Source: Candidatus Omnitrophota bacterium (GTDB lineage: Bacteria; Omnitrophota; Gorgyraeia; B26-G9). Taken from it: a stretch of DNA of 34,639 nucleotides. Positions 1,032 to 8,898 of this stretch are shown one piece after another. The position numbers and the translations under genes are program-made. The notes under the pieces were generated by a model, which saw only the letters and a program-made list of their open reading frames with translations, searched no databases and had not been told where the DNA came from. How positions within the stretch are numbered: the first letter of the stretch is position 1; each line of letters begins with the position of its first letter. The stretch covers positions 1 through 34,639 of the forward strand of contig JAHIOQ010000075.1 of assembly GCA_018895275.1 (NCBI GenBank), in the 5' to 3' direction.

Positions 1032-2762
1032 TTAGTACCTTCTCTGCTTACGCATATTTTCAACAGCCTTGTCAAAATCGGGTTTTTCTATTTCCTTCAT
1101 CCATTCTGACCAAAAGTCAATAGTCGCACTTAACGGTTTCTCATTCGGTACGTTGATTCTTATTCTACTGGGGAGTAACACCGCATCCCCCACAACAAGA
1201 GCCTCTCCGACATCCATAATTGGCAATACCTCCAGAAGACTTTCAAGACTTTCCGGCATTAATTTGCTCACAGTATTGCGGTCATCTCCATTTGTCAGGC
1301 GTAGAGCGATTACATTATTGCACTGACTCAATATAGTATCGCTCACATCAGATGGCCTTTGACTGATTATTAATAGTGCGACTCCATATTTACGCCCTTC
1401 TTTTGCGATTTTTTCAAAGGATTCAATTGCTCGTAATTCAACTGGATTCTTCCCGTCTTTTTTAGGTAAATAGAGATGCGCTTCATCACAAACAAGCGCC
1501 AGGGGACGTCGTTTATTATGATTTGTCCAAAATTGAACCTGATAAATTATGCGTGCAACAAGTCCAACAATAACCGGTAAAATCTCAGCCGGGACTTCGG
1601 AAAAATCAATAACTTTTACCTGTGCTCCATTTGTCGCATAGTCCATCAATTTAGCTGCTATACGAGCCATTGCGTCATAGTCATGTTCTGATTCAGGCGC
1701 GTCAAACAGAAAACCATAACGTTTATCGCTTAATTTGCTATTCAAACGAGTCAATAATCGGCTGAATTGCCCGAAAAATTGCCCCTGTTTTAAACCACGA
1801 GCGCCTTGAGTCATTTCTTCATTCATGTCATTCAAGTTCTTAATAACTTCATCCAGGGAAAACGGAACAGGACTATCAAGCGTAAACGCGTTTAAAACAT
1901 CCTGCTTCCCGAGTTTTTGAAGGATTACTTTTTTTTGAAAAACAACAGCATCTTGAAATGCCATAACCTGATTATGAGCGCTGAATTCAGAACGGTCAAT
2001 AAACATTGCCTGCATTTCTTCCGCGTTTAACAACCAATAAGGCAGATACAGCAATTTATCAGAAGCGGTTCCGAGTTCATCCGGCCCGGGAATACGCAAA
2101 TGGCGGGCATAGGAAAGTTTACTATATTCACCATGCAGGTCAAAAACGATTAAATTTGATGTGGGCAATTTCGCTGCCTGTTCCAGAATTGATGCCACTG
2201 CCCATGATTTTCCAGACCCTGTACTGCCAAGAAGCGCGGCATGGCGTTGAAAAAACTTATTTCCATCAAGATAAGCTTTTGCCGATTCATCAATAACATA
2301 TTTTCCAAGCTCTAAAGAATGTTCCCCTTCTCCTGCTTCTGACAATACAGCCATAAAGGTTTCAAGATTTTTGCCAAGGAGAACAAAACAGTTATCGGTA
2401 ATCCCCGGCATCTGTGACAGAGAACGGGTAAAAACAGATTTTCCTTTTATTGCGTCCCAAGAAAAGGAACCTACTAAAGCAAGCCGAACATTATTAACAA
2501 CTTGTTCTTGCTCAATTTCGTCCATCGTGTCTTTTTCTTTCTTTTCGTCTTCAGAATCTTGTTGTCCAACAAAACGGATGACTCTCACAATATTAGCAAT
2601 AAGCCAGGTTTCAAAAGCACCGGAAAGCTCAATCGCAACAAGCTGACCAACACGCGCTTTCTTAAGGTCTTCATCTTTTTCAACAAGAACTGAAACTTTT
2701 CTTGTATCTACTTCACGGACTGTCCCAAGCGTTGAAGATTCATCAAATTCTAAAATAGCCAT
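1032..2762 (-). CDS. herA: HerA/FtsK-superfamily ATPase of a SIR2-HerA defence operon
   Basis: The 576-residue protein begins with a HAS-barrel-like segment (about residues 10-65), followed by an acidic linker and a RecA-like HerA motor. Walker A is GSTGSGKSW at 179-187, the HerA-typical VFDLHGEYS follows at about 207-214, Walker B is LALVCDEAHLYLP near 421-433, and a conserved stretch EGRKYGVALLIISQRPSDVS follows. I chose ATG 2762 because GGGAGGG lies just upstream and it begins 4 nt after the SIR2 stop; a start at 2819 would overlap SIR2 by 53 nt. HerA forms hexameric translocases or ATPases. Paired with an upstream SIR2 NADase-like gene it matches the anti-phage SIR2-HerA (Nezha-type) arrangement. 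The third ATPase gene downstream is not part of the minimal two-gene system I know. Confidence 0.92.
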   Translation of the reverse strand: MAILEFDESSTLGTVREVDTRKVSVLVEKDEDLKKARVGQLVAIELSGAFETWLIANIVRVIRFVGQQDSEDEKKEKDTMDEIEQEQVVNNVRLALVGSFSWDAIKGKSVFTRSLSQMPGITDNCFVLLGKNLETFMAVLSEAGEGEHSLELGKYVIDESAKAYLDGNKFFQRHAALLGSTGSGKSWAVASILEQAAKLPTSNLIVFDLHGEYSKLSYARHLRIPGPDELGTASDKLLYLPYWLLNAEEMQAMFIDRSEFSAHNQVMAFQDAVVFQKKVILQKLGKQDVLNAFTLDSPVPFSLDEVIKNLNDMNEEMTQGARGLKQGQFFGQFSRLLTRLNSKLSDKRYGFLFDAPESEHDYDAMARIAAKLMDYATNGAQVKVIDFSEVPAEILPVIVGLVARIIYQVQFWTNHNKRRPLALVCDEAHLYLPKKDGKNPVELRAIESFEKIAKEGRKYGVALLIISQRPSDVSDTILSQCNNVIALRLTNGDDRNTVSKLMPESLESLLEVLPIMDVGEALVVGDAVLLPSRIRINVPNEKPLSATIDFWSEWMKEIEKPDFDKAVENMRKQRRY

Positions 2763-2766
2763 AATT

Positions 2767-3864
2767 TTACCCTCCCAATATTTTTTTTGTAAAAATATCA
2801 ACTTTCCAAAGTTCTTCATTCTGAAGGAACAAAGGAGCTGAATATTTTTTATTTTTTATTGATGTTCCGTCGGTACCAGTCCGACAAATAACCCATAAAT
2901 TTTCTGCTTCGGTTAATAGTTTGTCTATTCTATCATTAGTGTCTTTTGTAATAATTAACCCGTTACATTTCCGGTTTTTTAATTTATCCAACATGGCGTG
3001 GGTATTAAACTGTTTATCATTAAATCCAAAACCCAAAAATAGAAAGAAATCGTGCTTTCTTATTGCATTGTCAAATTCTCTTAATAGCTCATCTCGATAG
3101 TTATGCAATTTTTCGTATTTAGAAATACCCGGAGTAATAATCAGCCGTTCTGTTCCTTCCGGAGTTGGCATATACAACAACGCATTGTTTTCTATCAATT
3201 TGTCATTTGTTGAAAACATATTTAGCGAGCCGTGCACCTTATATAAAGCGATATGTTTCTTTTTTCTAGCAACTGATTTGATTTTTTTTCCATAAGGAGC
3301 TTTATCAACATAGGCAATACTTCTTCTACTTTGTTCCCAATCCAGATGCCGGATAACGCCGCCGTGAAATCCATTTATATATGGAATACCGGCTTTTTCA
3401 AAAGCATATTCTGCCAGCATATCATAATTAAGTGTTGCCACATGCAATTCTCTATCTGTGCCCGGCAAGCCATCCACAAGTTTTTTGAATAAAGATGCCG
3501 CCGGCCAGTTTTTGTTGCCGTTTAATATTTTTTGAGAATATTTAAAATCAAGGTTTGAGACAAAATCACTGGTTATTACAACAATTTTATTTATAAGGTC
3601 ATCGTCTTTTACACCATTCATTGCAGATTCAAAATCTTCTCCTAAATCCAATGACCTAATGACATTGTCCCACTCTGTTTGCTGTGTAGGATTTAATTTC
3701 CCCTTGGCAAGTTTAGCCAAAAGATGTTCTTTAAGATAAGCCATACCAAAGCTATCGTCAACTGCACAAGACATCCCTGTTCCAAACAGAACAAAAGGGG
3801 TGATACCCTTAAATAACTTCTGAATTTCTTCGTAAGCAATTTCTTTGGTTAATTCTTTAGCCAT
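2767..3864 (-). CDS. SIR2-family (NADase-like) defence effector
   Basis: The 365-residue protein has the landmarks of the SIR2-like fold used in phage defence: LFGTGMS (residues 26-32) for the NAD-binding loop, TLNYDMLAE (144-152) with the Asn/Asp pair, KVHGS (209-213) with the candidate catalytic His211, and FLGFGFND (276-283) near the end of the Rossmann domain. No signal peptide or membrane segment is visible, so it should be cytoplasmic. ATG 3864 is preceded by GGAGAG at a normal distance. It is the first gene of the SIR2-HerA-ATPase operon. In related systems the SIR2 protein depletes NAD or acts as a nuclease once HerA detects infection; which applies here cannot be read from sequence. 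Confidence 0.9.
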   Translation of the reverse strand: MAKELTKEIAYEEIQKLFKGITPFVLFGTGMSCAVDDSFGMAYLKEHLLAKLAKGKLNPTQQTEWDNVIRSLDLGEDFESAMNGVKDDDLINKIVVITSDFVSNLDFKYSQKILNGNKNWPAASLFKKLVDGLPGTDRELHVATLNYDMLAEYAFEKAGIPYINGFHGGVIRHLDWEQSRRSIAYVDKAPYGKKIKSVARKKKHIALYKVHGSLNMFSTNDKLIENNALLYMPTPEGTERLIITPGISKYEKLHNYRDELLREFDNAIRKHDFFLFLGFGFNDKQFNTHAMLDKLKNRKCNGLIITKDTNDRIDKLLTEAENLWVICRTGTDGTSIKNKKYSAPLFLQNEELWKVDIFTKKILGG

Positions 3865-3901
3865 TATTCAAACTCTCCGTTTTATTGCTATCACGACAAT
3901 C

Positions 3902-3910
3902 ATTTTATCA
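3902..3910 (-). promoter_or_regulatory. Possible extended -10 element for the SIR2-HerA operon
   Basis: In the 112-nt AT-rich gap between rhuM and the SIR2 gene, the minus strand reads TGATAAAAT, an extended -10-like element about 40 nt before the SIR2 start. I see no convincing -35 at 17 nt, so this is weak. The gap itself shows that the three-gene operon can be expressed separately from the upstream rhuM/hsdS genes. Confidence 0.25.
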
Positions 3911-3976
3911 CAATAGATTGATTATGCTTATTTTTTAATAAAATTTGTGACAATGATCTATCTTCATTTAAGTATG

Positions 3977-4978
3977 TTATAGTTTTTTCTTGGTAGATTT
4001 AATCAATTTTTTCACTTCGCGGTCGAAGTCGGAAACATAATTTTTGTCCTGTATTGCGCGATACTTTTCATATTCTGCCAAGGCCTTCTTTTCCGCCTGC
4101 TTCGCGCTCACCTTGCCAGCCGAATGCAATAAATTTTTTTCAGAAATGGCCAAAAATTCATCCAACTTTCTGATCCAATCCTGCATTTTCATCAAACGGC
4201 CGCTGTTGGCTTGCAGCTCCGCAAAATCAATATAGAGCGAGACGATCAGGTTCAGCTGATTTATTTCTGATTCGGTCAAATAGTTTTTCGCAACAACAAT
4301 ATCATCTGTAGTAATATAATCGCTTTTAAAACTTGTGAGTCCCATCAAGGGTTTTTTGTTGTCAGCACGCTGCGTGATGATTTCGGCAGCAGTATGTCCA
4401 TGCACGGCATAGTGCATTTTGTTTTGCACAGTAGCAAAGAATTTTTGCGTCAGCTCTACATCAGCTTTGTAGTCAATGCTCGTCGCGTAAATATCAGTCA
4501 CTTTCTGATAAAACATTCGCTCGCTGCTTCGAATGTCCCGCACTCTCTGCAACAATTCCTGAAAGTAGCGCGCCCGGCCTCCACCTTGCTTGAGCCGCTC
4601 GTCATCCAGTGTAAAACCTTTGATCAGATATTCTCGTAATCTTTCTGTTGCCCATTTGCGAAACTGTGTTCCTCTGTCAGATCGCACACGATAGCCAACC
4701 GCCAAAATCGCATCCAAATTATAATGTTTTGTGTCATACTCCTTGCCGTCTGTGGCAGTTATCCGGAAATTCCGGATAACTGAATTTTCATCCAATTCTT
4801 GCTCCAAAAATATATTTTTCAAATGCTCGTTAATCGTACGCACATCAACATCAAAAAGCTCCGCAATCAGTTTTTGCGTAAGCCAAACATTCTCATCTTC
4901 AATTCTAACGCTGATTTTTTGCTCATCGCCAAGAGTTTGATAGATGGCAATTTGCGATTTTTTAGTTTCTTTTTTCAT
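3977..4978 (-). CDS. rhuM: RhuM family protein (full length)
   Basis: The 333-residue protein carries the RhuM signature: an N-terminal winged-helix-like segment with VWLTQKLIAELFDVDVRTIN, then ELDENSVIRNFRITATDGK and the hallmark block HYNLDAILAVGYRVRSDRGT followed by FRKWATERLREYL. The C-terminal half is helical. RhuM proteins are frequent neighbours of hsdS in type I restriction loci. Their biochemical role is unresolved; a DNA-binding or toxin/antitoxin-like role has been suggested from domain relatives. Its ATG overlaps the stop of the preceding rhuM fragment as ATATGA, so translation may be coupled. Length and motifs look intact. Confidence 0.85.
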   Translation of the reverse strand: MKKETKKSQIAIYQTLGDEQKISVRIEDENVWLTQKLIAELFDVDVRTINEHLKNIFLEQELDENSVIRNFRITATDGKEYDTKHYNLDAILAVGYRVRSDRGTQFRKWATERLREYLIKGFTLDDERLKQGGGRARYFQELLQRVRDIRSSERMFYQKVTDIYATSIDYKADVELTQKFFATVQNKMHYAVHGHTAAEIITQRADNKKPLMGLTSFKSDYITTDDIVVAKNYLTESEINQLNLIVSLYIDFAELQANSGRLMKMQDWIRKLDEFLAISEKNLLHSAGKVSAKQAEKKALAEYEKYRAIQDKNYVSDFDREVKKLIKSTKKKL

Positions 4979-5223
4979 ATCAATTGCCTTTGTCCCTCTT
5001 TTTGAACTTGTAAGAAATCCTTACAAGTTGCCGTTTGGTCGGCTTCGCCCTCCGCATAGATGTTTTTGAGATGTTGGGTTATATTTTGAGGCGTTGTATC
5101 AAAAAGCTCTGCCATTTTCTTTTGGGTAAGCCAGATATTTTCTTCGGCATACAATACCTCAATATTCACCGAGCCGTCCGGTGATTGATAAAAAGCGATT
5201 TGGTTATCCGGTAGTTTTTTCAT
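4975..5223 (-). pseudogene. Truncated RhuM paralogue (N-terminal part only)
   Basis: The 82-residue product starts at ATG 5223, 4 nt after the hsdS stop. It contains the RhuM N-terminal block NIWLTQKKMAELFDTTPQNI and TATCKDFLQVQKEGQRQ, after which a full-length RhuM would continue into its HYNLD block. Instead the frame ends as LI-stop, with the stop overlapping the ATG of the intact rhuM gene. The two RhuM N-termini are clearly diverged, so this is not a simple recent duplication. It is most likely a remnant left when the neighbouring rhuM was swapped in. A short wHTH-only product could still be made. Confidence 0.7.
5005..5029. repeat. Perfect 10-bp inverted repeat inside the rhuM fragment
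   Basis: Arms AACTTGTAAG (5005-5014) and CTTACAAGTT (5020-5029) are perfectly complementary around a 5-nt loop. The repeat sits in codons for TCKDFLQV, a stretch that is conserved among RhuM proteins as I remember them, so it may be partly a by-product of codon use. It lies about 45 nt upstream of the truncation and of the intact rhuM start, so it could act as an RNA hairpin or a breakpoint. Confidence 0.7.
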
Positions 5224-5227
5224 AAGT

Positions 5228-6430
5228 TTATACTTCAATCGCGCCGCTCATCAGCCGCGGCAAAAGTAAATCCCGCGCCTGTGCGAGTTTTTGGTTTTGC
5301 TCTAATAAAATAAGAATTTCATTAAGTGCGGGGCTGACAATTTCATCAAATAAGTCCATCAGATTTTGTGGAGGCAATGTGGGGTTCATGTGCTTTATAG
5401 CCTCCCCCGCATGTTGAATAGTCGTACCTTTTGCGTACGCGTTTATAACGCCCTGTACATAATGTGACTTCATTAAAAAATACAAATAGGCCCGGTTTAT
5501 CTTTTTATCTTTAATAACTAGCTTCCTAATGCCTGTCGAATAACATCCCTCGAGCCCCATGCTAACAATCCCAACTGAGCCGTCCAATGAGACAACAATA
5601 TCACTCTTTTTCAAAAGGGCACTTTTGGCGTATTGCTCATCTACAAAAATACTTGGGCTTCTTGTAATTAAATCGCTTACTCTGAAGAAAGGAAATGATC
5701 CAGATTCATAAGTTTCTAAATAATTATCACTACCCGGTTCAACACCACGCTTAAAAGCAACTAATTTATTTATCTTTTCTTTATTCCATCCCTCTGGCAC
5801 GCCATCAACTAATCGTACAGACGCAAGATTTTGCGTCTCTATCTCATGCCCAGGAAAGCGGAAATACACAAACCACTCGCGGAATAAGAGCCGCGCCGAT
5901 TCTTCCAAAAGCTGTATCCGCCGGCGGTTGGTGTCAATAAGGTCATCATAGGTGGAAAGAATATCAGATATATATTGTTGTTTTTTTAGATCAAAATCAG
6001 GAATCTCGCCACGAAGAACTATATCGGAATCAACAGCTGGATATGATGTGCCTTTAGTATTATTAGTAAGATATCCAGTAAATTTATCATCAATTATGCA
6101 GTAATAAATAAAACGCGAATTAGCTGTCTCTTTTGCCCTTAAAACAGCAAATCCTGTTGATACAATTGTATTATTATTTGGATTTTTAATAAATAAAAAC
6201 GACCTAAGGTTTGGGCGTACAGTTGCAAGAATTATATCTTTGTTTCTAACAATCCGCTTTGCTCTACTGGGAGCATCTTTCAATAATATTTCTTCTGGTT
6301 GTTCGACTAATTGTCCTGAACCTACGGACGATATATCAATATACTCAATTGTTTGATAAGGATACCCTTGAGTTATTACCTCTGGATTTATGACTACAAA
6401 TTTGCTTAATGGTGCTTGTTTAATTTTCAT
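5228..6430 (-). CDS. hsdS: Type I restriction-modification specificity subunit HsdS
   Basis: At 400 residues it has the normal length and plan of HsdS. A first target-recognition domain is followed by the central conserved helical spacer QQYISDILSTYDDLIDTNRR and LLFREWFVYFRFPGHE. A second target-recognition domain begins at VPEGWN, and a C-terminal helix ends near LAQARDLLLPRLMSG. HsdS sets the DNA target of an HsdM/HsdR complex, but no complete hsdM or hsdR is seen in the window. A palindromic element (5815-5842) is inserted in frame between spacer and second domain, adding roughly IETQNLASVRL at a tolerant linker. The start overlaps the transposase stop as ATATGA, consistent with translational coupling. 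Confidence 0.93.
   Translation of the reverse strand: MKIKQAPLSKFVVINPEVITQGYPYQTIEYIDISSVGSGQLVEQPEEILLKDAPSRAKRIVRNKDIILATVRPNLRSFLFIKNPNNNTIVSTGFAVLRAKETANSRFIYYCIIDDKFTGYLTNNTKGTSYPAVDSDIVLRGEIPDFDLKKQQYISDILSTYDDLIDTNRRRIQLLEESARLLFREWFVYFRFPGHEIETQNLASVRLVDGVPEGWNKEKINKLVAFKRGVEPGSDNYLETYESGSFPFFRVSDLITRSPSIFVDEQYAKSALLKKSDIVVSLDGSVGIVSMGLEGCYSTGIRKLVIKDKKINRAYLYFLMKSHYVQGVINAYAKGTTIQHAGEAIKHMNPTLPPQNLMDLFDEIVSPALNEILILLEQNQKLAQARDLLLPRLMSGAIEV
5815..5842. repeat. REP-like palindrome, copy A (in frame within hsdS)
   Basis: This 28-nt element has core arms AGACGCAA and TTGCGTCT with outer positions degenerate. It is related to the three copies in the neighbouring transposase gene. Read on the minus strand it encodes ETQNLASVR, the same frame as the other copies. 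Confidence 0.75.
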
Positions 6431-7074
6431 ATCCCCAACTTATTAATTTCGGTCATTCGTAAAGACGCAAAATCTTGCGTCTTTACATTGTTTTTGTTTG
6501 TAAATAATTCATCGGCATTCCAATTAACAGGATTATTAGCGACATATTCTCGAATGCGACACAGATCGTTATCATTGCGAATTATATGATCATAAAATCC
6601 CGATTGCCATGCGAAAATAATATCATTCATTGATGCATATTTTTTAACGCCGATTTTGAATCCACGAATAATTGATGCCAAATTTTTTGATTGCGGGCCG
6701 AATTTATTTTGTTTTCGTCGTAGAGACACAAAATTTTGTGTCTCTACAACATCGTTTTCATTTTGTATGGATGCAATATTTTCGATTGCCAAAATTCCAT
6801 GTACATGATTTGGCATAATGATAACTTCATCCAATATCACAAACGGGAAATGATTTGGGATTTCCAACCAACAATGTTGGGTAATTTTACCAATTTCGGT
6901 CATTCGTAGAGACGCTAGATTTTGCGTCTCTACGATTTCACCAAAATAATGCTCCTTATTATGAGTGCAAATTGTAATAAAATAATAACCATTGGACGAA
7001 TAATCCCAATCGGATAAACGGGTAGATTTTACACGATATCGATTTTTATATAATTCATCGTCTATATTTTTCAT
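6427..7074 (-). CDS. IS200-like / REP-associated (RAYT) HUH transposase
   Basis: The 215-residue protein belongs to the Y1 HUH family (COG1943): NGYYFITICTHNKEHYFG near the N-terminus, the metal-binding HUH motif in IIMPNHVHGIL, then SIIRGFKIGVKKYA and FAWQSGFYDHIIRND, with IREYVANNPVNW closing the fold. The catalytic Tyr is expected in the C-terminal helix region; I cannot assign it with certainty. RAYTs are single-copy transposases linked to dispersal of REP palindromes. This gene itself contains three such palindromes in frame (copies B, C and D), each adding about ten residues in a probable surface loop. It sits between an hsdM-like tail and hsdS, overlapping each junction as ATATGA, so it looks like a cassette placed inside a type I operon. 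Confidence 0.88.
   Translation of the reverse strand: MKNIDDELYKNRYRVKSTRLSDWDYSSNGYYFITICTHNKEHYFGEIVETQNLASLRMTEIGKITQHCWLEIPNHFPFVILDEVIIMPNHVHGILAIENIASIQNENDVVETQNFVSLRRKQNKFGPQSKNLASIIRGFKIGVKKYASMNDIIFAWQSGFYDHIIRNDNDLCRIREYVANNPVNWNADELFTNKNNVKTQDFASLRMTEINKLGI
6459..6486. repeat. REP-like palindrome, copy B (C-terminus of transposase)
   Basis: Arms GTAAAGACGCAA and TTGCGTCTTTAC are perfect 12-bp complements around AATC. The flank AATTTCGGTCATTCGTA on the plus-strand left side is shared with copy D, so the repeated unit is longer than the palindrome. It encodes KTQDFASLRMTE just before the transposase stop. Confidence 0.85.
6720..6747. repeat. REP-like palindrome, copy C (in frame within transposase)
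   Basis: This is a perfect 28-nt palindrome with half-site GTAGAGACACAAAA. It differs from the other copies by a paired change (ACGC to ACAC and GCGT to GTGT), so the pairing has been conserved. It encodes VETQNFVSLR in the same frame as the other copies. Confidence 0.88.
6906..6933. repeat. REP-like palindrome, copy D (in frame within transposase)
   Basis: Perfect 10-bp arms GTAGAGACGC and GCGTCTCTAC surround 8 nt, and one more C-G pair flanks them. The upstream flank AATTTCGGTCATTCGTA is shared with copy B. It encodes VETQNLASLRMTEI inside the N-terminal third of the HUH transposase. Confidence 0.87.
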
Positions 7075-7157
7075 ATTCCCAACTTCCTAAAATTTTCACT
7101 AATTTTTTTTGCCAAATCTGTGGTCTGTTCGTTCAGGCCTTCCATGTTGATGTGAAT
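7071..7157 (-). pseudogene. Detached HsdM-like C-terminal tail, copy 2
   Basis: Beginning 1 nt after the yhcG stop, an open frame of 28 codons reads IHINMEGLNEQ...DLAKKISENFRKLGI and then stops at ATATGA, overlapping the transposase ATG. Residues of the type EGLNEQxxDLxxxIxENxxxL resemble the extreme C-terminus of type I methyltransferase HsdM, which normally precedes hsdS. It matches copy 1 (8295-8381) at about 67 of 87 nt by my count, including an identical stretch of about 25 nt. There is no start codon or ribosome site of its own, so it is a remnant or recombination substrate, or might be read through. Confidence 0.65.
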
Positions 7158-7158
7158 A

Positions 7159-8298
7159 TCAGGCCGCGTCTCTGCCCTCCTCTTGCGCCAGTTCCGCTTC
7201 GATTTCCGCTACAGTAGGCAGACTTCCTTTCAATTGTTTGGGAAGGCGTTTGACAAGTCTGGTTTCCCAATCCGCAACACCTATGGGTTTCTTAAAACCG
7301 CGAATAGCGTATTCCACTACCACCTTATTTTTGGATCGGCAAAGGAGTAAACCGATGGTGGGTTTATCATCCGGATGGCGCAAGAGATCGTCCACCGCCG
7401 ATAGGTACATATTCAACGCGCCAACAAAGCCAGGCTCAAAAGGCACGGCTTTCAACTCTACTACAACATAACAACGCAGTTTGAGATGATAAAATAACAA
7501 ATCGAGATAGAAATCACTGGCGCCGATTTCAAGGTGTATCTGCCGTCCCACAAAAGCAAAACCAGTCCCAAGCTCCAGCAGGAAATGCTGCACGTGATTC
7601 ACCAGAGCCTGTTCAACTTCTCGCTCCCGGCGGGGATCAGCAGTACCGAGAAAATCGAACAGATATGGATCTTTGAACACCTGTGCTGCCATGTCCGAGT
7701 CGGCAGGAGGGAGAGTAAGGACAAAATTGGTGATTGCCTTGCCATGACGTTTATGAGCGCTGGTCTCAATCTGTATTGCAAGAATATTGCGACTCCAACC
7801 GTTCTCGCGAGACATCTTGGCATACCAAAGCCGTGTTTGCGGGTCTGCAACCTTTTCGAGCAAAGCAATATTGTGATACCAAGTGATTTGTGCAAGCGTC
7901 TCTTGCACAAATTGCTGATTCGGCCATGCAGCAGCGAAAGATCTCATATACTTCAGATTTCGGGGAGAAAGCCCTCGCATATCAGGGAAAGCCTCACGCA
8001 GGTCAGCGGAAAGACAGTCAATGACTTTTGACCCCCAACCTTCGCGCTCCTGACGTTTGAGAATCGCCCTGCCGATATCCCAATACAAGAGGACCATAGC
8101 TGCATTAGCGGCCATAACAACGCGTAATCGCTCTGTCTGAATGCGCTCCTTAATCTCACCAAGGACAGCGATGTAATTTTCCGGTAATTCTCCGCTTCCG
8201 GGACGAACAGAGAATAATGCATCTTTCTGCCAAATACCTCTCGATTTCCGTTCCAAACCGCTATTGGAGACAGGTGTTTTTTTATCTGGCTTCTTCAT
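7159..8298 (-). CDS. yhcG: YhcG/DUF1016 family PDDEXK nuclease
   Basis: The 379-residue protein has the DUF1016 N-terminal helical domain (AANAAMVLLYWDIGRAIL, then RGLSPRNLKYMRSFAAAWP and WYHNIALLEKV). The C-terminal PDDEXK nuclease domain carries the catalytic signature EIGASDFYLDLLFYH and VVVELK, with Asp in the first block and E-x-K in the second. The family is common in defence islands and type I loci as an accessory nuclease; its role is not firmly established. The ATG overlaps the stop of hsdM-like tail copy 1 (ATATGA), and the stop is followed 1 nt later by tail copy 2, so the gene is bracketed by two copies of the same 87-nt tail. The gene looks intact and more GC-rich than the transposase and rhuM genes. 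Confidence 0.9.
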   Translation of the reverse strand: MKKPDKKTPVSNSGLERKSRGIWQKDALFSVRPGSGELPENYIAVLGEIKERIQTERLRVVMAANAAMVLLYWDIGRAILKRQEREGWGSKVIDCLSADLREAFPDMRGLSPRNLKYMRSFAAAWPNQQFVQETLAQITWYHNIALLEKVADPQTRLWYAKMSRENGWSRNILAIQIETSAHKRHGKAITNFVLTLPPADSDMAAQVFKDPYLFDFLGTADPRREREVEQALVNHVQHFLLELGTGFAFVGRQIHLEIGASDFYLDLLFYHLKLRCYVVVELKAVPFEPGFVGALNMYLSAVDDLLRHPDDKPTIGLLLCRSKNKVVVEYAIRGFKKPIGVADWETRLVKRLPKQLKGSLPTVAEIEAELAQEEGRDAA

Positions 8299-8381
8299 AT
8301 TTTTAGCTGCTTAAAATTTTCACTAATTTTTTTTGCTAAATCGAAAGCTTGTTCATTTAGGCCTTCCAGTTCGGTGTGGAT
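8295..8381 (-). pseudogene. Detached HsdM-like C-terminal tail, copy 1 (fused behind radC)
   Basis: The frame reads IHTELEGLNEQ...DLAKKISENFKQLKI and ends in ATATGA over the yhcG start. Its first part overlaps, in a different frame, the last codons of the truncated radC, whose stop is at 8353. It starts at the same point of the tail as copy 2 (7071-7157), so both inserted genes were joined to the same segment of the methylase gene. The main body of hsdM is missing from the window. The HsdM assignment rests on resemblance of about 20 residues. Confidence 0.62.
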
Positions 8382-8898
8382 TGTGCGCCAGTATGATTGA
8401 GGAGGCAAGTTGACGTATGGCCGGTTCAAATACTTCGCGCGGATGCACCAGCGTTTGCGCCAATGTGCCGATAGAAATAATCTCTTTATGAATGAGCTGC
8501 TTGCGGGCGTTGAGATACAGCGCCATAAAATATTCTTTTTGCTTTCCTCGCAAATCAACAAGCTGGGCAACAGTGTCTCTTACGGAATCCAGGATGGGAA
8601 GAGAATCATTGAATGAACCAACCGCGCGGCGGCCAAGCTCCAAAGCAGCCTTGATAGTAATGGCTTTGGTATCTTCCAACCCCTTAATACCGGTCAGTTC
8701 ATCTTTTGTAACAGCTGAAAGTTTTGACAGGGGATACTTTTTCAGGGTTTCTTTGGCAATATCCAAAGCGCTCTTACCGGCTCGGCCGGTACGAATAAGG
8801 ATTGCCAATAGTTCGGCATCACTTAAGTTTTCCGCTCCCCTTTCAGATAGCTTTTCTCTAGGCCTTTTATGTTTTGGTAAGTCTTTGATTTTTGCCAT
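8353..8898 (-). pseudogene. radC: RadC-like JAB/MPN protein, truncated before its catalytic motif
   Basis: The first about 170 residues are classic RadC: LPKHKRPREKLSERGAENLS, LLAILIRTGRAGKSA, a helix-hairpin-helix region (LTGIKGLEDTKAITIKAALE) and the JAB-like domain with YFMALYLNARKQLIHKE and HPREVFEPAIRQLASS. It then breaks at IILAHN, where the family continues HPSGD to complete the metal-binding H-x-H...S..D motif. Instead the DNA runs into the hsdM-like tail and the frame ends as PHRTGRPK. At 181 residues it lacks about 45 C-terminal residues and should be catalytically dead. RadC proteins are often carried by mobile islands. A perfect TATAAT lies upstream, so it may still be transcribed as the first gene of the island. 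Confidence 0.85.

Follow-up and report, generated by a model that had tools for sequence, protein, structure and literature searches.

Transposase genes that carry their own REPs are already on record. The tnpA_REP genes of subclass 2.4 hold REPs within the gene without disruption of the reading frame, generally in a peripheral variable region between the HuH motif and the tyrosine, and these are double-foot REPs of the form GT[AG]G…C[TC]AC (Quentin et al. 2018, PMC6006769). Another study describes GTAG REPs, REPtrons and intragenic REPs, and assigns two Rickettsia palindromic elements (RPE), RPE-4 and RPE-6, to a CGTC class without an associated transposase (Di Nocera et al. 2013, PMC3733652). 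For TnpA_REP of other groups, recognition of the GTAG hairpin and cleavage at CT/CA have been reported (PMC8266576). These three sources make the kind of element known; the locus described here is a new and compact example of it.

The window, by which we mean the whole stretch of DNA that was analysed, is one 34.6-kb contig of a draft genome of 2.56 Mb (163 contigs, 88.7% complete). A RAYT gene and hsdS adjoin each other on its minus strand, and a 28-nt palindrome recurs within both:

5228..6430, minus strand: hsdS, type I restriction specificity subunit, 400 aa (Pfam and PADLOC)
5815..5842, minus strand: REP copy in hsdS, central conserved region/TRD2 interval, read as IETQNLASVR
6424..6441, minus strand: direct repeat AAGTTGGGGATATGAAAA at the RAYT end / hsdS start
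6427..7074, minus strand: RAYT / TnpA_REP-like Y1 transposase gene, 215 aa (NF047646, Foldseek, HuH/Y)
6459..6486, minus strand: REP copy in the RAYT C-terminal tail, read as VKTQDFASLR
6720..6747, minus strand: REP copy at RAYT site 2, the loop after the HuH motif, read as VETQNFVSLR (V110-R119)
6906..6933, minus strand: REP copy at RAYT site 1, read as VETQNLASLR (V48-R57)
7068..7085, minus strand: direct repeat AAGTTGGGAATATGAAAA at the RAYT start

The RAYT ORF matches the NCBIfam family REP_Tyr_transpos (NF047646) with an E-value of 1.4e-12, a match that lies below the curated cut-off; the same family is matched by all 54 aligned RAYT relatives, and a Pfam search returned no family for the RAYT itself. 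Residues H90, H92 and Y177 are invariant among 54 homologues. The two histidines form the HuH motif, H90-x-H92, and Y177 is the probable catalytic tyrosine; in a pairwise alignment it corresponds to Y115 of 4er8, the catalytic tyrosine of that protein. Structural similarity search with Foldseek, using the AlphaFold model of the RAYT (AF2; mean pLDDT of 83.7), gave 4er8, a TnpA_REP with a bound REP hairpin, as the best PDB match (E-value of 3.3e-6). The protein combines a HuH motif, a single putative catalytic tyrosine and the Y1 fold, and it is associated with cognate GTAG REPs, three in its own ORF and one in hsdS, with a density gradient around RAYT genes that is described below. The family match, the fold and the relatives all agree with the sequence-only reading, in which the host gene had been taken for a REP-associated HUH transposase.

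All four palindromes that this reading had placed at 5815, 6459, 6720 and 6906 are present, each with 2-3 mismatches to GTAGAGACGCAAAATTTTGCGTCTCTAC, and shuffling the window 100 times gave an expectation of 0 compared to the 4 observed. Three copies sit in the RAYT ORF and one in hsdS, all in frame. When folded as single-stranded DNA, each of the four forms a hairpin, with z values of -3.5 to -6.6. The GTAG/CTAC feet are intact in copies 6720 and 6906, changed to GTAA/TTAC in copy 6459, and degraded in copy 5815. The compensatory changes reported for both arms of one copy are found in copy 6720, and symmetric changes that maintain pairing also occur in copy 6459 (GTAA...TTAC). By contrast, the argument from a common strand falls away, since a palindrome is identical on both strands and its orientation carries no information. 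The four copies do share one reading frame; however, one of the three frames holds a TAG, so that only two can be read through, and finding all four copies in one of them is by itself weak evidence.

Copies 6459 and 6906 have the extra flank in common that was pointed out earlier, namely 15 nt on the 3' side, CGAATGACCGAAATT as read along the coding strand. Relatives have this flank (…TEIGE/K) at site 1 as a normal part of the RAYT, which suggests that the C-terminal copy 6459 most likely derives from the site-1 copy 6906 together with its flank. A search of the 2.56-Mb draft genome (88.7% complete) at up to 3 mismatches yielded no copies beyond these four, which all lie within 1.12 kb, the hsdS copy being ~0.6 kb downstream of the RAYT ORF.

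The inserts differ in their predicted structures. At site 1, V48-R57 is modelled as a β-hairpin with strands at residues 45-50 and 53-58 (block pLDDT of 95-97), and the centre of the palindrome falls at the turn, so that the REP appears to supply a core structural element; on this confident model, the site-1 REP has replaced a core β-hairpin of the RAYT. In contrast, site 2 (V110-R119; block pLDDT of about 52-62) and the C-terminal copy (block pLDDT of 53-58) probably lie in disordered segments. The expectation that the inserts fall in surface loops therefore fits two of the three RAYT sites but not the third, since site 1 is a well-packed hairpin rather than a floppy loop, and tolerance in loops is not universal.

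Comparison with homologues revealed the state of the host genes without the palindromes. Profile searches identified the downstream gene as hsdS (Pfam Methylase_S PF01420, E-value of 1.7e-20; PADLOC Specificity_I, E-value of 3.9e-58). Three genomes of the same class as that of the window (G013, G424 and G397) carry an hsdS with near-identical flanks and an empty site, which reads CATGAR-AARGTRAAR-WTAGTTGAT and encodes KVK, compared to IETQNLASVR in the window; the G424 sequence begins with CCTGAG. In all three comparisons 30 nt stand in place of 9 nt, a net gain of 21 nt, which rules out a clean insertion in hsdS. The closest RAYT homologue, L038 of KSB1 (54% identity), has no insert at site 1, where its GEVWQGQMYRTEIGE corresponds to GEIVETQNLASLRMTEIGK of the window RAYT, and it also lacks the C-terminal tail. 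Here too a clean insertion is ruled out, as site 1 shows a net gain of 4 codons relative to L038; the site is also filled in two other RAYTs (L045 and L067). Homologues without the palindrome thus also lack the residues that it encodes, with KVK in the three hsdS genes and nothing equivalent in L038 at site 1 and the C-terminus, so that the first objection raised against the sequence-only reading, that such homologues might carry the same residues anyway, does not apply.

The RAYT stop codon overlaps the hsdS ATG. An 18-nt direct repeat, AAGTTGGGRATATGAAAA (26 nt at 85%), flanks the RAYT gene, with one copy over the RAYT start and the other over the start of hsdS. The copy AAGTTGGGGATATGAAAA is absent from every locus from elsewhere that was compared, and the repeat looks like a start context of hsdS duplicated when the RAYT gene inserted. 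IS200/IS605 elements are not known to make target duplications. The neighbours of the RAYT gene are a YhcG-type nuclease gene on one side and hsdS on the other, and RhuM, SIR2-like and HerA genes belong to the same group. More broadly, positions 1032-8898 of the window form a defence-type cluster on one strand, comprising HerA with a SIR2-like partner, a RhuM-type protein, HsdS, a YhcG/DUF1016 nuclease and a RadC-like protein; neither hsdM nor hsdR was identified among the proteins examined in this cluster.

We propose that the window is very probably a miniature REPtron of the subclass 2.4 type, in which the RAYT acts on the REPs in its own gene and copies that leave the frame open are retained. 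The RAYT would recognise the 28-nt double-foot REP (GTAG...CTAC) as a single-stranded hairpin and place copies mainly nearby, by short-distance movement. REP copies would have accumulated in its own gene and, one gene downstream, in hsdS, where a unit of ~30 nt (28 nt plus GA) would have replaced 9 nt of host sequence. The survivors would be those that leave the host frame open, with length changes in multiples of three, and the DNA element would be what is retained, the peptide being a tolerated by-product. Several observations, namely the structure and positions of the copies, the empty sites, the association with lineage, the clustering around the gene and the use of two frames, lead us to infer that the window RAYT binds and cuts its REP and moved these copies, mainly locally. 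In this sense the suggestion of a transposase gene that harbours its own substrate has good support, and it is already published (PMC6006769), with binding and cutting as its conjectural part; the earlier interpretation as a whole is partly upheld.

The scan for RAYT relatives gave 80 named loci spread over many phyla, and loci from the phylum of the window itself were added to these. Palindromes with arms of at least 12 occur at 1.01/kb in 97 RAYT ORFs, compared to 0.011/kb in codon-shuffled sequences and 0.048/kb in 348 neighbouring ORFs. With arms of at least 10, a palindrome is found in 68 of the 97 sampled ORFs. Among 66 palindromes in RAYTs, 57 fall in one alignment gap, the loop after the HuH motif, whereas three are at the site-1 hairpin and three at the C-terminus; the window RAYT has all three sites. 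A separate group of RAYTs, L143 (G000:C24), L020, L032 and L035, represents a second type, in which site 1 holds GTAGGGGC-like remnants and site 2 holds them in the opposite sense (VGAGLVSARN / REEASPSPT), which suggests paired inverted single-foot REPs in one ORF. The exact 28-nt palindrome was also found in five viral contigs (L118-L122; IMG/VR).

The presence of a palindrome in most RAYT ORFs, across many phyla and at one position, could also mean that the in-gene REP is a functional cis element that is actively retained, for example because binding of the enzyme to its own gene or mRNA limits expression, or because the REP serves as a tag by which gene and substrate stay linked in horizontal transfer. 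We consider this doubtful. It accords with the conservation of the DNA across frames and among RAYTs with cores only 45-66% identical, and with six genomes in which the only copies, or the only intact-foot copies, lie in or beside the RAYT: G000; G304, with all three perfect-foot copies within 0.66 kb at the RAYT; G299, G312 and G317, each with a single perfect-foot copy inside the RAYT ORF; and by inference G307, whose one perfect-foot copy is taken to be in the RAYT, its place not being listed. Nevertheless, ~30% of the RAYT ORFs have no palindrome with arms of at least 10, including those of the closest relatives L038 and L041. In addition, palindrome density is no higher in the RAYT ORF (0.94/kb) than within 150 nt on either side (about 1.1/kb), and drops ~tenfold past 150 nt, to 0.12/kb at 150-500 nt and 0.01-0.02/kb beyond 1.5 kb. 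Tolerance together with a gradient of local insertion, as in the REPtron reading, would explain the same facts, although clustering at the RAYT gene could come partly from retention rather than from local insertion.

The number of copies varies among genomes. G151 has 23 copies, 11 of which are within 4 kb of its RAYT. Nine copies away from the RAYT were sampled, and seven of these are genic and lie in paralogous genes. The corresponding loci L209-L214 form a paralogous family with open frames of 537-748 aa, a similar N-terminal domain and apparent signal peptides, and have REPs inserted in frame at two positions that recur among them (GHGVETQNFASLRxDS and QNAGVETQNFASLHxD). G296, a Methylomonas MAG, has 102 copies, 41 of 50 being intergenic, and all 15 copies of G300 are of the in-RAYT variant (the in-RAYT copy included), 14 of them intergenic. 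Copies in these REP-rich genomes are scattered and for the most part intergenic, so local movement does not account for everything. In-frame REPs were further seen in the pyruvate:ferredoxin oxidoreductase of Planktothrix rubescens PCC7821 (L226) and, in a Methylomonas MAG (L186 and L180), in an Eco57I-type methylase and in nifB, where the REP separates the radical SAM domain from the FeMo-cofactor domain.

Palindrome type tracks RAYT lineage. On a RAYT core tree built without the insert columns, whose deep branches are weakly supported, the GAGAC type of palindrome requires 8 changes compared to a shuffled mean of 23.1 (0 of 500 shuffles), and arm identity correlates with RAYT core identity (Mantel r of 0.40, 0 of 5000 permutations). 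At single loci the result is mixed: in 15 of 20 comparisons the match of the in-ORF copy to its own flanking copies exceeded the swapped mean, and the mixture arises partly because unrelated palindromes were counted as flanks. Neither this lineage association, which extends across phyla, nor the density peak at the RAYT is predicted by a route in which the RAYT is a passive neighbour and the palindromes are spread through recombination by the host, gene conversion or replication template switching from hairpin to hairpin. Such a route is suggested by the 15 nt of site-1 coding sequence that accompany both copies 6459 and 6906 and by the replacement, rather than clean addition, of host sequence in hsdS, and we regard it as improbable.

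Identical palindromes are read in two open frames in the same loop, in L093/L097 (GTAGAGACGCGATTAATCGCGTCTCTAC) and in L102/L109 (GTAGAGACAAGGCATGCCTTGTCTCTAC), and the peptides obtained from the identical DNA, GRDKACLVST and VETRHALSLR, are unrelated. What is conserved is thus the DNA and not the peptide, and arms can be identical between RAYTs that share only 45-64% identity in their cores. The claim that the palindrome is always read as ETQNLASLR does not hold, as related RAYTs use the other open frame (RDAxxxxVST type) in the same loop. Frame use is preferred, not fixed: among the RAYTs (L008-L117), 36 are read GTA-first, 8 one base over and 0 in the TAG frame, so that the anticipated preference exists but is not absolute (two-sided binomial of about 2.5e-5, with rows treated as independent). 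The phase is scattered on the RAYT tree (7 changes compared to a shuffled mean of 6.6), which rules out frame inheritance as the cause, and the bias does not just reflect shared ancestry. One guess is that the VET-type peptide is better tolerated.

This bias, together with the clearly genic non-RAYT copies seen, every one of which is VET-type, and the confidently modelled β-hairpin at site 1, is what could be said for selection on the peptide VETQNxASLR as a linker or β-hairpin module, with the palindrome secondary. A protein-level origin is nonetheless very improbable and largely refuted by the two-frame pairs of identical DNA; moreover, copies in REP-rich genomes are mostly intergenic, and symmetric arm changes keep the hairpin and not the peptide. 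An assembly or chimera artefact at repeats, which the draft state of the genome might bring to mind, is scarcely credible given that both ORFs are intact, the palindrome variants are mutually distinct and dozens of unrelated assemblies show the same arrangement.

It is conceivable, if unlikely, that the RAYT gene depends on its internal REP as a working component, a substrate that it carries itself and that may also be self-regulatory, held at a fixed position across phyla by DNA-level selection, whichever open frame the REP falls into. If so, one small gene would move between genomes with the seed of its own REP population. The window, where all copies of the genome are in or next to the RAYT, would then represent the founder stage of such a population. 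Compared to the description of 2018, the additions are the survey of 97 ORFs, the tracking of lineage, the use of two frames, the frame bias and the density gradient; two-frame use, lineage-linked type and, in several genomes, RAYT-only occurrence separate DNA-level retention from peptide function. With four copies, one enzyme and defined empty sites, the window offers a minimal natural system for the origin of REP populations, and a case in which translated palindromes make new protein segments, including a replaced β-hairpin.

Among known systems, the IS200/IS605 TnpA proteins of IS608 and ISDra2 share the fold, the HuH/Y chemistry and the recognition of subterminal single-stranded hairpins; however, their hairpins are external to the gene and transposition moves the element as a whole, whereas the hairpins of the window are inside the ORF. 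The likeness to Rickettsia palindromic elements proposed earlier is functional: in both, palindromic DNA is translated in frame inside unrelated proteins, here HsdS and, elsewhere, those of nifB, the Eco57I-type methylase and pyruvate:ferredoxin oxidoreductase. Unlike RPE-4 and RPE-6, which PMC3733652 places in the CGTC class without a transposase, the window element has GTAG feet and lies inside its probable transposase gene. It resembles the GTAG REPs of that same paper in being a RAYT-associated GTAG palindrome with in-frame insertions in unrelated genes; the parts of its main text consulted here do not report REPs well inside RAYT genes, the window palindrome does not occur there, and searching the literature for the palindrome sequence or the peptide string yielded no papers. 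The precise match is to the double-foot REPs of subclass 2.4 tnpA_REP (PMC6006769), judged by published features: a Y1/HuH transposase, in-ORF REPs with the frame kept, the double-foot form GT[AG]G...C[TC]AC in copies 6720 and 6906, and a REP between HuH and Y, copy 6720 lying between H92 and Y177. The window differs from subclass 2.4 in having one copy in the neighbouring hsdS and none elsewhere in the genome, and in a RAYT ORF with three copies, including one at a core β-hairpin site and one at the C-terminus.
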